This document shows positions 6,466-21,886 of a DNA stretch of 25,672 bases, one piece after another. Position numbers and translations under genes: made by a program. How positions within the stretch are numbered: position 1 is the stretch's first letter; every line of letters starts with the position of its first letter. The stretch comes from Trichodelitschia bisporula. Taxonomy: Eukaryota > Ascomycota > Dothideomycetes > Phaeotrichales > Phaeotrichaceae. Where the stretch lies: assembly GCA_010356995.1 (NCBI GenBank), contig ML996691.1, positions 130,174-155,845 on the forward strand, given 5' to 3'. The notes beneath the pieces are model-generated. The model worked only from the letters and a program-made list of their open reading frames with translations, searched no databases and was not told the origin of the DNA.

Positions 6466-8152
6466 TTAACGTGCGGCCAGATTCTTCATGTCCTGCTCAC
6501 GCGCACTCTCAATTTCGCGGTCCGCGGCATGGTCCGCGAGGTCGGCAGGCGTCTCTACGGGCGTCGCTGGCTCCTGCGGGCTCAGTATCAGCGCCTCACG
6601 CCGTAGCTGGCGGCCATGCGCCTCAGCCTTGACGCGGTTCAGTTCCTGGACAAACGTTTGGCCCCACCACGCGCTGCAAAAATTAGCCCCACTCCTTCCT
6701 AGCATTTCGTACATACCTCGTGTAGTTCTTGACATATTTGGACAGCTTGGCGAAGTTGATGGCGCGTGGCTCGTCCGGCATAGTGACAGCCTCGTGCAGC
6801 GCATCAGCCAACTCCTCCGTGTTCCATGGGTTCACGATGAGGCTGCCGTTAAGGCTCTGCGCCGCACCAGTGAACTCTGACAGCACCAGCACGCCATGAC
6901 GCTGCTCCTGGCAAGCAATGTACTCGTACGACACCAGGTTCATGCCGTCGCGCGTCGACGAGACCAGGCATACATCTGACACGGCGTAGAGCGCAAGCAT
7001 CTCGTCGAAGCTGATGGACTTGTGCATGAAATGGATGGGCATAAACTCGACGGTACCTGAAATGTTAGTGACTCACTCGGTGATATCTGAGTAGAGGCAC
7101 TTACCAAACTTGCCGTTGATCCGGCCCACCAACTCATTGACCACTGCCCGTAGGTTCTGGTACTCCTCGACGTCCTGCCGGCTGGGCACTGCCACCTGCA
7201 CGAGCACCACTTTGCCTATCCACTCGGGGTGCTCCGTCAGGAACACCTCGAGCGCGTGCATCTTCTGGGGAACACCCTTAATGTAGTCGAGGCGGTCAAC
7301 GCCGACAATCAGCTTCACGCCCTGAAACTTGCGCTCCAACGCCGCAATGCGCTCCTGCACCTTGGGCTTCTTGAGGCCCTCTTCAAACTTCTCCGGGTCG
7401 ATGCCGATTGGGAAAGCTCCCACGGCCACCAGCCGACCCTCGAACTCAACACCGTTGGGTGTCGTTGGCAATCCCAGAATGCGCGAGCAGCTCGACAGGA
7501 AGTGACGCGCGTACTCGTAAGTGTGGAAACCGAGCAGATCGCACTGTAGCACGCCCAGCAGGATCTCGTTGCGCACAGGCAAGATGCGGTAAATCTCGCT
7601 GCTCGGAAAAGGGGTGTGCAGGAAGAAGCCAAACTTGACATTCTTCTTCGTGTCACCGAGCTCCTCGCGCAGCATCGCCGGGAGCAGCATGAGATGGTAA
7701 TCGTGAACCCAGACGAGGTCGTTGTCCTGGATATCCTTGGCAACGGCCTTCGCGAACAGGCGGTTCGCTTCGCTGTACGCCTGCCAGGCCGACTCATCAA
7801 AGGTGATTTCACCGGGGTGGTAATGAAACAGCGGCCAGAGGATGGAGTTGGAGAAGCCATTGTAGTGCTTATCGGCGAGGTCGTCGTCCAGCATGACGGC
7901 AACAGCATTGTACTCATCCTTGAGTTTCTCCTGCAGACCGGCAATCTCGTCTTCGGGAATCTCCATACCTGGCCAACCGTACCACTGGAAAGTTGTCGTC
8001 TTCTTGAGCCCGCTCAATCCACTGACGAGACCGCCCGATGACATGCTCGTCTCGTAAGTGCCGTCATCCTTGCGCTTAATGGTGATGGGCAGGCGGTTGG
8101 AGATGAGGAGGAGACGTCCCTCCTGGTCGGAGTTGGTAGCGGGCGCCGACAT
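6466..8152 (-). CDS. tps1: Trehalose-6-phosphate synthase (UDP-forming, GT20 family)
   Basis: Transfers glucose from UDP-glucose to glucose-6-phosphate to make trehalose-6-phosphate, the first step of trehalose synthesis in the cytosol. Three exons (8152-7105, 7056-6717, 6673-6466) with introns of 48 and 43 nt give 531 residues, slightly longer than the usual 480-520. Motifs in order: LLISNRLPITIKR, SGGLVSGLSGLK, QWYGWPG, VWVHDYHLMLLPAMLR, FFLHTPFPSSEIYRILPVR, VGVDRLDYIKG and SSTRDGMNLVSYEYIACQ, covering the UDP and G6P sites. The C-terminus adds a Glu/Ala-rich tail after AWWGQTFVQEL. The start MSAPATNSDQEGRLLL at 8152 was chosen because the conserved core begins 13 residues later. There is no phosphatase domain, so this is the Tps1 rather than the Tps2 type. 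Confidence 0.96.
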
Positions 8153-8388
8153 GATTTTGCTGACGCTTAGCTGAGACACAGGCGACGATGGCGGGTAGAT
8201 GCAGTTCGAGTATGCAGTGTGGATAAGGTGCGTCTCAGTAAGGTATGAAAGCGAAAGCGTCACAGTGTCCTGGTCGAGGACAAGGGTTTGTTGATTACGT
8301 GGTAGAGGCAGGCACGAGTAGTGGGGGGAGAAGGTGAGGAGGTATTTGCAGAATGTGGGCAATGCTGCGTCGTGAGTGTCGTGGTTGT

Positions 8389-13483: not shown

Positions 13484-14378
13484 TCACCTCTCCGCACTCC
13501 TCACCGACATCCCCCGATCCGGCGTCCAAAGCGTGGTAACCGGACTCGCAGCCCAAGTCTGCAACTCGGCAGGCTCGTCCCTGCCCGCCGGCACCTCCGC
13601 CGGCGGCCTCGCATACGGCACCGGCCAGACACCCTGCGCCCTTCCATCCCACGCCGGATCCCGCCCATCCCATCCCCCTCCGTCCGCGCCCTTCCAAGTA
13701 CTCCCCGCGCCCCCGCTCTCCATCTGCGTCAGCGGCACCGCACTCCCCGGCCGCCGCCATGCCTTGAGTTCCTCGATTTCGCGCCGTAGACGCCGCATGC
13801 TGGACCGGCGGTGGAGGAGCATGCCTGCCACCAGAAGGAGGGCGAGGCCGACGACGCCGGCTGCGATGCCGATGGTGAGTTTTGTGGATTGGGGGAGGCC
13901 GTGCGCGTGTTCGGGGAGGGGGGTGGAGGAGGAGGTGGTGGTGTTGGAGGAGTGGGTTGGTGTTGTTGAGTTGCTGTCCAAGGGACACTGGAGGGTATCT
14001 AGTGTGATGGTTTTGTTGGCTTCCTGGCAGAAGCCGGCGAAGTAGTGAAGCGCGCCTGGAGCGGTTAGATACGCGTGCGATATGGGAGGGGAGGGGAGCG
14101 TACCGATGCGGTCGTTTGGCGAGCATGAATTCGGCAAGCAGCACGATATGCCGTTTATCAGCGCTGTGTCAGAGCAGAGACACAACACATCGGTTGGATT
14201 GCACGCGCTGATAAACACGGCATTGTTCACACATCCGGCCTTGCCTATTAGCCAACATCCCCTCAAATTACTCAAGGAGCATACATACAGCACACTGCGG
14301 CAAACCATTCAGTCCCGGCCCATCACCCAGCGCAAAAGCCGCACAAAGCAGCGCAACTACGATAGATAAAAGCACCAT
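13484..14378 (-). CDS. CFEM-domain single-pass membrane protein
   Basis: Three exons (14378-14289, 14239-14104, 14055-13484) with introns of 49 nt (donor GTATGT, acceptor GGCAAG) and 48 nt (donor GTACGC, acceptor CTCCAG) give 265 residues. Residues 1-17 form a signal peptide (MVLLSIVVALLCAAFAL). The CFEM domain spans about 26-86 with cysteines at 29, 33, 43, 50, 52, 63/64, 69 and 85. Asp47 (CNPTD) lies in the usual pre-Cys position that binds haem iron in Candida CFEM proteins. A Ser/Thr-rich linker follows (about 104-122), then a membrane helix (135-156, IGIAAGVVGLALLLVAGMLL) and a basic cytosolic tail. Topology predicts an extracellular CFEM domain. CFEM proteins act in haem or iron uptake, adhesion or host interaction, and which applies here is unknown. 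Confidence 0.87.
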
Positions 14379-18120: not shown

Positions 18121-19572
18121 CTACACCTTGCCCTCATCATCGCTATCCTCATCACTCAACCGACTCGCCCCACTGCCCTCCGCACCGATCGGTAGAGGCG
18201 TCGGATTGGCCTCTTTCCGCGTTGGCTTGACCGCAACACGCTCCTCCACCTCCTCCTCCTCCTCATCCTCCTCCCCCATCAATCCCTCCCCCTCATCCCC
18301 ACTCTCCTCGCCTGGCGCAACAACATACTCCCCCCCCGTCTTATCCTTAATAAAGCTATCAATAATCCAGTACTGCATCGCATTCATCACCAGCGGGAAA
18401 ACAAACATAACGAACACGATCTGCATCCACTGCTTGCCCTCCGTCCACCGCAGCGCCCAGTCGCCCACCCACCCCAGCCAGGGCAGGACCTGGAAGAGAA
18501 ACAGCACGCAGAGTTTCATGCCAAAGAGGCCGAGGAAGTAGATGAAGGATTGCTTGAGCCACCAACTGGCCTTCGGAGGGTTGCCGTAGTTACCGCTCTT
18601 GAGCGACTCGGGCGGGTTGGCGAGGGCTGTTCGGGCGAAGAGCGCGTGGAGGACCCGGAGCAATACCACTAGGATCGCGATGCCGATCGTCGTCTGCCCA
18701 TCATTAGCCTCTCCCCAAAAAAAAATCTCAAAAGAACCACTTACATCAATCCCCAAATTCAACAAATAAAACGAGCACGGATTCGGCTGTCTCCCATCCT
18801 CCATCTTCACCCCCTGCACCGCATCCTTCGCCCTATTGATATCCAAATCCCCACTGCTCAACATGCTCATGAACAGATTCGCCAGGTGCAGCAGCATGCT
18901 CCCAACTACCTGCTTGCTCACGTCGAAGGACCACACCTTCAACGGCCGGCGGGGTGTCTCGCGGTAGCGCTTCCACACGAGCGAGAGCAGCGCAAGCGCA
19001 CCTAGCGCGCCCTGCACCAGCAGCGCGAAAGGACCGAGCAGCTTGCACTCATTGTTGCCATGCTTCGGTCCATCCTCATGCCCCTTATCCTCCTTCCCAC
19101 CCTCCTTCGCCGGCTTCACAGCCGTAAAATCCCCCGGCGTAGGCACCGGCACCGGCGGCGCCGTCGCAATCACCATCTCCACCTCCACGCCATCAATACT
19201 AATCAGCTCCGTATCAAACACCAGCGTCGCCTTGGGCGGAATCGGGCCGGTGCCAAAATCGCCATATCCGAGTTCGGGAGGTATGGTCAGTCGCCTCGCC
19301 TCGCCCGGACACATGTCCAGAAGGCCCCGGTCCCAGCCCTTGATGACCTGGCCCAGGCCGAGGGTGAAGGCGAACGGTTTCTTGCCCGCGCCGTAGCTGG
19401 TGTCGAATTGTGTACCGTCTACGAGGCGGCCCCGGTAGTGCACGTGGATTGTGTCGCCGGAGCGGGTGGGGCGGGTGCATGGCTGGGCCTTTGTGGTTGT
19501 GATGGCGACTGTGGGGGGCGTGGCGAGGACGGAGGGGAGGAGGGCGAAGAGGGCGACGGTAGGGAGGCGCAT
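18121..19572 (-). CDS. Signal peptide - FKBP prolyl isomerase - STIMATE/TMEM110-like membrane protein fusion
   Basis: Exon 1 (19572-18745) and exon 2 (18693-18121) flank a 51-nt intron (donor GTAAGT, branch GCTAAT, acceptor GGGCAG). The product is 466 residues. Residues 1-17 form a signal peptide and about 30-128 an FKBP domain of the ER FKBP2 type. All pocket residues are seen: Tyr46, Phe56, Asp57, Phe67, Phe69, Val76, Ile77, Trp80, Tyr103, Phe119. After a Pro/Lys-rich linker (133-174), residues 176-390 match STIMATE/DUF3661 (fungal vacuolar membrane protein, animal TMEM110): [66 protein letters not shown] and [16 protein letters not shown]. It has about five membrane helices and an acidic cytosolic tail. 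No stop, frameshift or splice site separates the two parts. The FKBP would face the ER lumen. An ATG at residue 133 could start a STIMATE-only form. Confidence 0.85.
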
Positions 19573-20208: not shown

Positions 20209-21886
20209 CTACTCCACCCTCTCATCCCTCTCCTCGTCCTTCGTTCCCCGATAAATACTCTCCGGATTCCTAACCCCCACCGTAATCCCCTCCTCCACCC
20301 TCTTCAACGTCAACGCCGCAATAAGCGCCGCACCCACTCCACTCCCATCCTCCGCCGCCCTAACCATTACCGGATCCGGCACGTCTCCAACTCCCCACCC
20401 GAAGATCTCGCGCAGCGCTTGCGCGAGCCGCGTCCGGAAGTACGGGTGCATGCCGAAGAGCGACCCATCCGCGCCGACGGCACACGTCTTCCACTCCATC
20501 TTGTTGCATATAGCCGCGACGCCGCAGGCCGACAAGCGCGCCGAACGCGTGGAGATGAGTTCCGCGAGCCGCCGCGCGAGCTCGAGTTCAGCAGGCGAGG
20601 CGGTCAGATTGAGGGTGGTGGTGAAGAAGGCGGCGACTTCGGCGAGGTCGTCGGTTGTATCTCTGCATCGCAGTTAGCCCGTCTCCCATTCAAAGCAACC
20701 AAGCAACCCACTCCTCAATCGCTGAAATAACACTCGAATCCAACGAATACGCCTTCCTCAACCTCCCCACATCCTGCCCCTTAAACAGCTCCGCATCCGG
20801 ATTCTCATGCAAATCCAGCAAGACCAGGCGGAACAACTCGCCGAGGTACAACCCCGCGACCATCTTCTCAAACGTCTGCTGTCCTGGCCTCGGGCTGTCC
20901 TTATCAATTATAACATCGTACGGCGTGCGTGGCAGTATAACGCGCTCGTTGTCGAAGGCGCCCCACTCGCAGTTAATCGCCATAGGCAGATCCGGGTCAA
21001 GATTCAGGTGCGCGAGTTTGGGGATCGACCCGCAGCGCTCCATGTACGCGGCGTTGCAGCCCGTGCCGAAGATGCACCCGATGCGCACTTGATCGTTCGT
21101 GTAGGCGGAGGCGATGAGCGTGCCGACGGTGTCGTTGATCAGCGCTGTGGGCTTGATCGGGAGGCCCTGGGGGTGTCAGTCCGCACCCACACATCCCGAG
21201 ATGGACATACCCGCTCCTCGAGCGCGGCCTCAAACGGCGGGATGACGTCCGTCCCCTCCACGCCCTTGATATCAAACCCCTTCGTCCACCGCTGCAACAC
21301 GCCATGGTTGATATACTCCTGCGTCGCGGGATAACTAAACGTAAACCCGAGCGGGAGCTTCTCCAACATCTCCCCCGGGTGCTGCTCCTCAATGAAACTC
21401 TTCAAACAGTCCCCAATATACGCCCACAGTTCCTCGCCGGTGCCTGTCTTCAGCTCCTCTGGCATGCGGTACTTGCTCTGCACGATTTCGAATTCGCCTT
21501 TCGCTTCTGGGAGGGTGATTTCGCAGACGCGTAGGTTTGTGCCGCCCATGTCGATGGCGAGGAAGACGCCGGTTTCGTGGCCGGTCGGGAAGGACATGCA
21601 CCATGAGGGGACCATGGGCTGGGAGGGGTTAGCTCTTGGGTTGAGGGATTGGGAAGGGAAGGAACGTACGATGCTGCCGCCCTCGACGGAGAGTCCCTTC
21701 GTCAGTTCAGACTGGAAATGTGCTGTAATCCGCTTGAGCAGGTCCGTCGGCACGGTGAACAGCTCCTCCAGCCGCTCAAGCTGCGCACGCAACTCATGCG
21801 GCATAGCGGCGAAGGAATCTGCGCGATCGATTCAGTGACATGCCACCTCGCCCGTAGACGGCAGCTCACATACCCGATCTCGCCAT
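20209..21886 (-). CDS. Hexokinase
   Basis: Phosphorylates glucose and fructose with ATP at the entry to glycolysis, in the cytosol. Five exons (21886-21874, 21818-21670, 21618-21211, 21166-20712, 20662-20209) with introns of 55, 51, 44 and 49 nt give 492 residues, the normal family length. The first exon is only 13 nt and yields MARSD across the splice. Motifs: LAIDMGGTNLRV (phosphate 1), QSKYRMPEELKTGTGEELW, LPLGFTFSYPATQ with LQRWTKGFDI (sugar binding), ALINDTVGTLIASAY (catalytic Asp), IGCIFGTGCNAAY, LPRTPYDVIIDKDSPRPGQQ, LSACGVAAIC and AAEDGSGVGAALIAAL. FSYPATQ and LQRWTKGFD mark it as hexokinase rather than glucokinase. Small oddities are GCNAAYMERC, where GVNAAYMEN is usual, and the absence of the longer basic N-terminus of many fungal hexokinases. 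Confidence 0.95.

Follow-up and report, generated by a model that had tools for sequence, protein, structure and literature searches.

The window analysed here, a stretch of 25,672 nucleotides from the ascomycete Trichodelitschia bisporula, contains on its minus strand an open frame that begins with the first ATG, at 19572, and is closed by a stop codon at 18121, without any internal stop. This FKBP-STIMATE fusion gene (18121..19572, ATG to stop; all of its parts described below lie on the same strand) is modelled with two exons, 19572-18745 and 18693-18121, and the spliced product was computed to have 466 residues and a mass of 51 kDa. Domains were called with Pfam profiles and their curated cut-offs, and helices were taken from hydropathy peaks. 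By these means, the order of parts proposed in an earlier note on this DNA, a signal-like start, an FKBP_C domain, a linker and five hydrophobic helices with the STIMATE profile PF12400, was confirmed. A TctB match in the fusion protein was disregarded, as its 17.7 bits fell under the cut-off of 29.1. The genome searched comprised 25.65 Mb in 30 contigs, and as profile searches were run exon by exon, all genome-wide counts given here are lower bounds. Upstream, 636 nt lie between the fusion gene and the stop codon of a hexokinase gene, its direct neighbour on that side (20209-21831, matches to Hexokinase_1 and Hexokinase_2). Downstream, 662 nt separate it from the first ATG (17458) of the next frame, which is without a Pfam match and unproven as a gene. 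The same window also contains a gene for a glycosyltransferase of family 20 (trehalose-phosphate synthase-like, 7073-8167) and a CFEM-domain protein (13484-14308, minus strand), which is followed by a hydrophobic stretch recognised by eye; gene content of this kind, together with the introns, points to a fungal genome.

The description of the gene as one uninterrupted frame in the earlier note is correct in that no stop codon falls between the two domains, but the frame includes a 51-nt stretch at 18744-18694 that is very probably an in-frame intron (18694..18744), judged by the signals GTAAGT, GCTAAT and CAG, by base composition and by the gain in profile score. Third-position GC is 0.29 inside this stretch versus 0.78 before and 0.80 after it, and when it was removed, the PF12400 (STIMATE) match gained 18 bits (149.5 versus 131.4 with the stretch in place) and extended from profile position 12 back to position 1. 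The motif GCTAAT likewise occurs in a 56-nt intron of the gene for an FKBP2 with a KKDEL end in the same genome. The following applies to the 51-nt intron of the fusion gene. Its length is divisible by three and it contains no stop, so that a transcript with the intron retained would still be open throughout and would give an isoform of 483 residues with 17 extra residues just before helix 3. A loose intron scan yielded ten candidates in the frame; the nine others have weaker signals, and none of them is located at the domain join. The best of the nine, which starts with GTATGT and spans frame nt 1244-1301 (window 18271-18328, 58 nt), has a weak branch site, the acceptor GAG and a length that is not a multiple of three. 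We did not adopt this candidate, the removal of which would shift the frame of the acidic tail after helix 5.

The putative N-terminal signal peptide (residues 1-18, 19519..19572) is called by hydropathy only, with a peak at residues 6-24, and its probable cleavage after VLA was placed by eye. The FKBP_C domain follows at residues 33-124 (19201..19476) and matches PF00254 with 109.8 bits against a cut-off of 21.1 over profile positions 2-94 of 94, so that the complete FKBP domain described earlier stands, as does the signal peptide in the form of a signal-like start. In the PDB search, the top two chains among the best 60 of 151 distinct sequences matched were multi-domain wheat FKBPs, and the next-best chains in the same set were FKBP2 (4nnr, 2e-31; 2pbc, 6.4e-31). 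The domain is of the FKBP2/FKBP13 type, with Cys32 and Cys88 aligning with Cys residues of the FKBP2 chain 4nnr. Of the features of a soluble ER protein of this type, the signal-like start and the FKBP2-like sequence are present, whereas the soluble form and the retention end are absent. The fused domain was compared with an active-site list in FKBP12 numbering. The equivalents of Tyr26, Phe36, Asp37, Phe46, Val55, Ile56, Trp59, Tyr82 and Phe99 are present as the active-site core, and the aromatic core of the pocket is kept in an alignment to PDB FKBP chains that was inspected by eye. However, the Arg42 equivalent is Ala, the Ile90 equivalent is not kept, and in the alignment to wheat FKBP one residue is missing from the 80s loop. 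The claim that all ligand-pocket residues are conserved is therefore overstated, although it holds for the aromatic core. From the sequence, we infer that the fused FKBP has prolyl isomerase activity.

Genome-wide, PF00254 matched at least five stretches in four genes, the fusion gene included. One of them (L002) encodes after splicing the 135-residue FKBP2 with the KKDEL end, which is of the soluble type and shares 57.9% identity with the fused FKBP (70/121 columns). Its gene has an intron within the FKBP domain, whereas the fused FKBP domain has none. At the 80s loop, the KKDEL paralogue aligns to the fused FKBP without gaps and thus has an equally short loop, indicating that the short loop is not a decay of the fused copy. 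Because this KKDEL FKBP2 is encoded elsewhere in the genome, the soluble-type ER isomerase is retained and the fused FKBP represents an extra, tethered copy. In another gene (L003), the FKBP is split over two frames, and its first part gave an additional match of 39 bits to NPL, a nucleoplasmin-like domain, an arrangement as in nuclear FKBPs. The stretches L004 and L005 are two exons of one gene, the spliced product of which has 156 residues and is the third FKBP of secreted type, without a KDEL-type ending and with 41.8% identity to the fused FKBP (59/141 columns). This gene occupies positions 1339-2006 of L005 (contig C7, about 386086-386753) and has introns of 89 and 108 nt. A wheat FKBP-domain query gave four matches in the genome, all in FKBP genes already matched by PF00254. 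Neither PF00254 nor the wheat query detected a separate FKBP12-like frame in the genome, in which introns may split one; we do not claim absence of FKBP12, since a gene for the cytosolic protein may be interrupted in this way.

In the C-terminal half of the fusion, PF12400 matches spliced residues 266-392 (18346..18777, interrupted by the intron) over profile positions 1-123 of 124, and the score of 149.5 bits after splicing compares with a cut-off of 22. It is the single PF12400 match in the genome. Five hydropathy peaks were assigned as transmembrane helices: helix 1 at residues 182-200 (19029-18973, given as 18973..19029; hydropathy 2.05), which is followed by a basic loop, helix 2 at residues 222-240 (18853..18909; 1.44), and, in spliced numbering, helix 3 at 278-296 (18634..18690; 2.34), helix 4 at 325-343 (18493..18549; 2.07) and helix 5 at 368-386 (18364..18420; 1.83). 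A sixth peak at residues 123-141 (1.26) was not counted as a helix, as it falls in the end of the FKBP domain and the linker. The five-helix STIMATE domain of the earlier note is thus borne out with respect to the number of peaks, but the PF12400 match does not reach beyond the part with helices 3-5, and helices 1 and 2 are assigned to the STIMATE part from general features of the family. The predicted cytosolic loops are basic, with 7 K/R versus 2 D/E after helix 1 (residues 201-221) and 4 versus 1 between helices 3 and 4, whereas the predicted lumenal segments are not (K/R versus D/E: 6 versus 7, 4 versus 6 and 2 versus 2). The C-terminal tail (spliced residues 387-466, 18124..18363) is acidic, with 26 D+E versus 8 K+R, and ends with DEGKV, without a KDEL-type or KKXX ending. 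It holds one match to the dileucine-like pattern [DE]xxxL[LIM], EGEGLM; motifs of this kind are AP-3 signals. The acidic tail departs from the positive-inside rule and is placed in the predicted cytosolic position because of the helix count alone. Four to five helices and a cytosolic C-terminus are expected of STIMATE, and by hydropathy and loop charges the predicted arrangement of the fusion fits this expectation. A topology with a lumenal FKBP and a cytosolic C-terminus is therefore supported as a prediction, and the consistency that had been noted earlier is upheld by the agreement of frame, Pfam matches, hydropathy and loop charges. An AlphaFold2 model of the unspliced single sequence (mean pLDDT 42.3, pTM 0.26) was too poor for use.

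Taken together, it appears fairly probable that the two exons of the gene encode just one product, a lumenal prolyl isomerase of the FKBP2 type that is tethered to a membrane of the ER or the vacuole. In such a protein, the signal peptide would direct the FKBP domain into the lumen, helix 1 with the basic loop trailing it would stop the transfer, and after five helices the acidic tail would end up on the cytosolic side. Both anchor and address may be provided by the STIMATE part, either for the ER or, if yeast Ypl162c is a guide, for the vacuolar membrane, and the anchor would keep the isomerase close to its clients and to the lumenal side of a single membrane. The likeliest clients would be nascent or mature membrane proteins, or the lumenal loops of STIMATE itself. 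The separate KKDEL FKBP2 could keep the general ER role, with the fused domain acting as a specialised copy. Such a gene may have originated when a duplicated FKBP2-type gene was joined to a STIMATE gene by loss of a stop codon and the spacer.

The yeast protein Ypl162c, which we take to be a member of the STIMATE family (PF12400), bears on the location of the fusion. Ypl162c is reported exclusively at the vacuolar rim in log phase (PMC8176713), while animal STIMATE is described as an ER protein (PMC7889955). The vacuole could be the site of the fusion according to the location of Ypl162c, the missing ER retrieval ending and the weak EGEGLM motif, and the ER could be its site by analogy with animal STIMATE. 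The same observations may be read in another way, namely that the gene encodes an ordinary vacuolar protein of the STIMATE/Ypl162c type with a passive FKBP passenger that is no longer catalytic or important. Besides the vacuolar rim location of Ypl162c, the absence of a KDEL-type or KKXX ending and the EGEGLM tail motif, the replacement of the Arg42 equivalent by Ala and the 80s loop lacking one residue would agree with a passenger. However, the FKBP has an intact aromatic core and an intact Cys pair and PF00254 is matched over positions 2-94 of 94, the KKDEL paralogue shares the short loop, and EGEGLM is weak evidence, so that we regard a mere passenger as unlikely.

The preferred reading of a tethered lumenal isomerase presupposes that both domains are made as one protein. 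They are connected by a Pro/Lys/Glu-rich linker (residues 129-174, 19051..19188) of 46 codons that is open in the frame of the gene only, in agreement with the Pro/Lys linker described before; it contains no stop in this frame and two in each of the two other frames. The GC contents of its codon positions (0.72/0.43/0.74) include coding-like third positions. The absence of stops is not rare by itself, as 77% of position-specific shuffles were also free of them. Frame nt 340-560 (residues 114-187) contain 13 GT dinucleotides, but in this stretch donor patterns pick out only GTGGGA and one GCAAGC, which are weak, and the scan of the frame listed no intron with donor, branch site and acceptor that has its donor before frame nt 636. 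There is therefore no convincing intron by which the FKBP could be terminated ahead of the STIMATE part. The stronger argument for one protein is the spacing, with 46 linker codons between the domains, while the frames on either side are 636 and 662 nt away. Two separate proteins could be formed from a transcript for a lumenal FKBP and from an internal start for STIMATE at the ATG at 19176 or later. The ATG at 19176 is in frame, has a purine at -3 and could start a STIMATE-only product. We nevertheless consider two proteins very unlikely: since there is no stop, good donor or spacer between the domains, an FKBP product must run into STIMATE unless there is cleavage or early polyadenylation, and the pyrimidine content of the 128 nt before 19176 is 0.45 versus 0.61 before 19572, with the former stretch also coding for FKBP. 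That an assembly or base-calling error joined two genes is highly improbable even though the join is known from one assembly and a shift by a single base where the FKBP ends would run into a stop 6 or 34 codons later, because the two domains share one frame and neither is damaged, a KDEL-like FKBP end appears in neither of the shifted frames, and even with a base error only about 46 codons would lie between the domains.

As a single protein, the fusion resembles several known FKBPs in part. Proteins of the FKBP2/FKBP13 kind (yeast Fpr2, fungal ER group C) likewise have a signal-like start, a single FKBP_C domain of lumenal type and the Cys pair, but in contrast to them, the fusion has no retention tail and carries a five-helix membrane domain after the FKBP. 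Neurospora FKBP22 is presumably the NcFKBP3 of PMC1618848. It is similarly a fungal secretory-pathway FKBP with an extra C-terminal region, but this region is described as charged, with a predicted amphipathic helix and an HNEL end, and not as a multi-pass membrane domain (PMC1618848). In this survey of the repertoires of 16 fungi, the ER FKBPs of groups C and D are uni-domain, the FKBP section describes no membrane-fused member, and the word "transmembrane" appears once in the main text, about a cyclophilin (PMC1618848).

The earlier note had considered a tethered lumenal isomerase a new arrangement, yet membrane tethering of a lumenal FKBP is not new in kind. The anchor of mammalian FKBP11, for instance, is a single helix. 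FKBP11 is described as a membrane-spanning protein of the secretory translocon and is thus an earlier case of a tethered lumenal FKBP; like the fusion it is membrane-anchored, with its FKBP assigned to lumenal density and its C-terminal helix on the cytosolic side (PMC12804085). It differs by a basic, ribosome-binding end, where the fusion has the five-helix STIMATE domain and the acidic tail. The ligand site of FKBP11 is buried by CCDC134, and the authors of that study reason that FKBP11 does not act as an isomerase on nascent chains (PMC12804085). With this caution from FKBP11 in mind, tethering may matter more than catalysis in the fusion as well.

We rate the fusion as a new combination of two domain families that are both already known. 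The statement in the earlier note that no FKBP-STIMATE fusion had been described agrees with the titles of the open-access matches listed, none of which is about such a fusion; one may still be published, and the unpublished status is not shown by these titles. Among the open-access matches listed, FKBP, STIMATE and fungi were mentioned together only in PMC9513094, which is on TraB proteins, and PF12400 as a literature term gave no open-access match. A paper on STIMATE evolution deals with chordates and three non-chordate model species, and its main text contains no word beginning with fung, yeast or FKBP (PMC5627428). In prokaryotic and viral contig collections, which have no bearing on fungi, no relatives of the fusion were confirmed; short patterns matched 48 and 87 stretches in prokaryotic contigs and 10 and 6 in viral contigs, none of them confirmed, and the pattern set of one of the prokaryotic-contig scans included intron and linker residues. 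It is conceivable but quite unlikely that a clade of fungi shares the fusion and that STIMATE/Ypl162c acts together with a lumenal FKBP2 even where the two are encoded by separate genes. If true, such a recurrent partnership would be the first clue to the role of the STIMATE family without STIM1. Conservation of the fusion would connect lumenal protein folding with a membrane family whose role in fungi is little known, and would provide a natural membrane-tethered FKBP2 beside a soluble-type sister in one genome. If private to one species, the fusion would be a curiosity of domain shuffling.

The resemblance to animal STIMATE/TMEM110 lies in the PF12400 match of 149.5 bits, the multiple helices and the C-terminus that is predicted to be cytosolic in the fusion, whereas the descriptions of TMEM110 in the available part of PMC7889955 mention no FKBP domain. 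TMEM110/STIMATE binds STIM1 via its C-terminus (PMC7889955), and the earlier note had suggested that the fusion is a calcium regulator at contacts of the ER and the plasma membrane, acting with STIM1 or calcium-release channels. The partner STIM1 is, however, reported to be absent from the fungi surveyed: a study of human-pathogenic fungi found neither STIM1 nor Orai1 in the genomes it covered and states that fungal genomes lack IP3R and RyR (PMC3410928). As these four proteins are reported absent from fungi (PMC3410928) and Ypl162c is vacuolar (PMC8176713), this calcium mechanism is not supported and has hardly any likelihood; an unrelated calcium role of the fusion is possible. Pfam searches of the genome for Orai-1, SOAR and Ins145_P3_rec were empty, but no control genome gave matches either, and without such a positive control these searches are no evidence of absence. 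PF00520 gave six ion-channel matches in the genome, which belong to a different family and are no control for the Orai, SOAR and IP3R searches. Three ion-transport matches are located in one frame of 1634 residues on contig C7 (284357-288735) and a fourth in a nearby frame of 271 residues. By their architecture, we take these frames to resemble a Cch1-type calcium channel.
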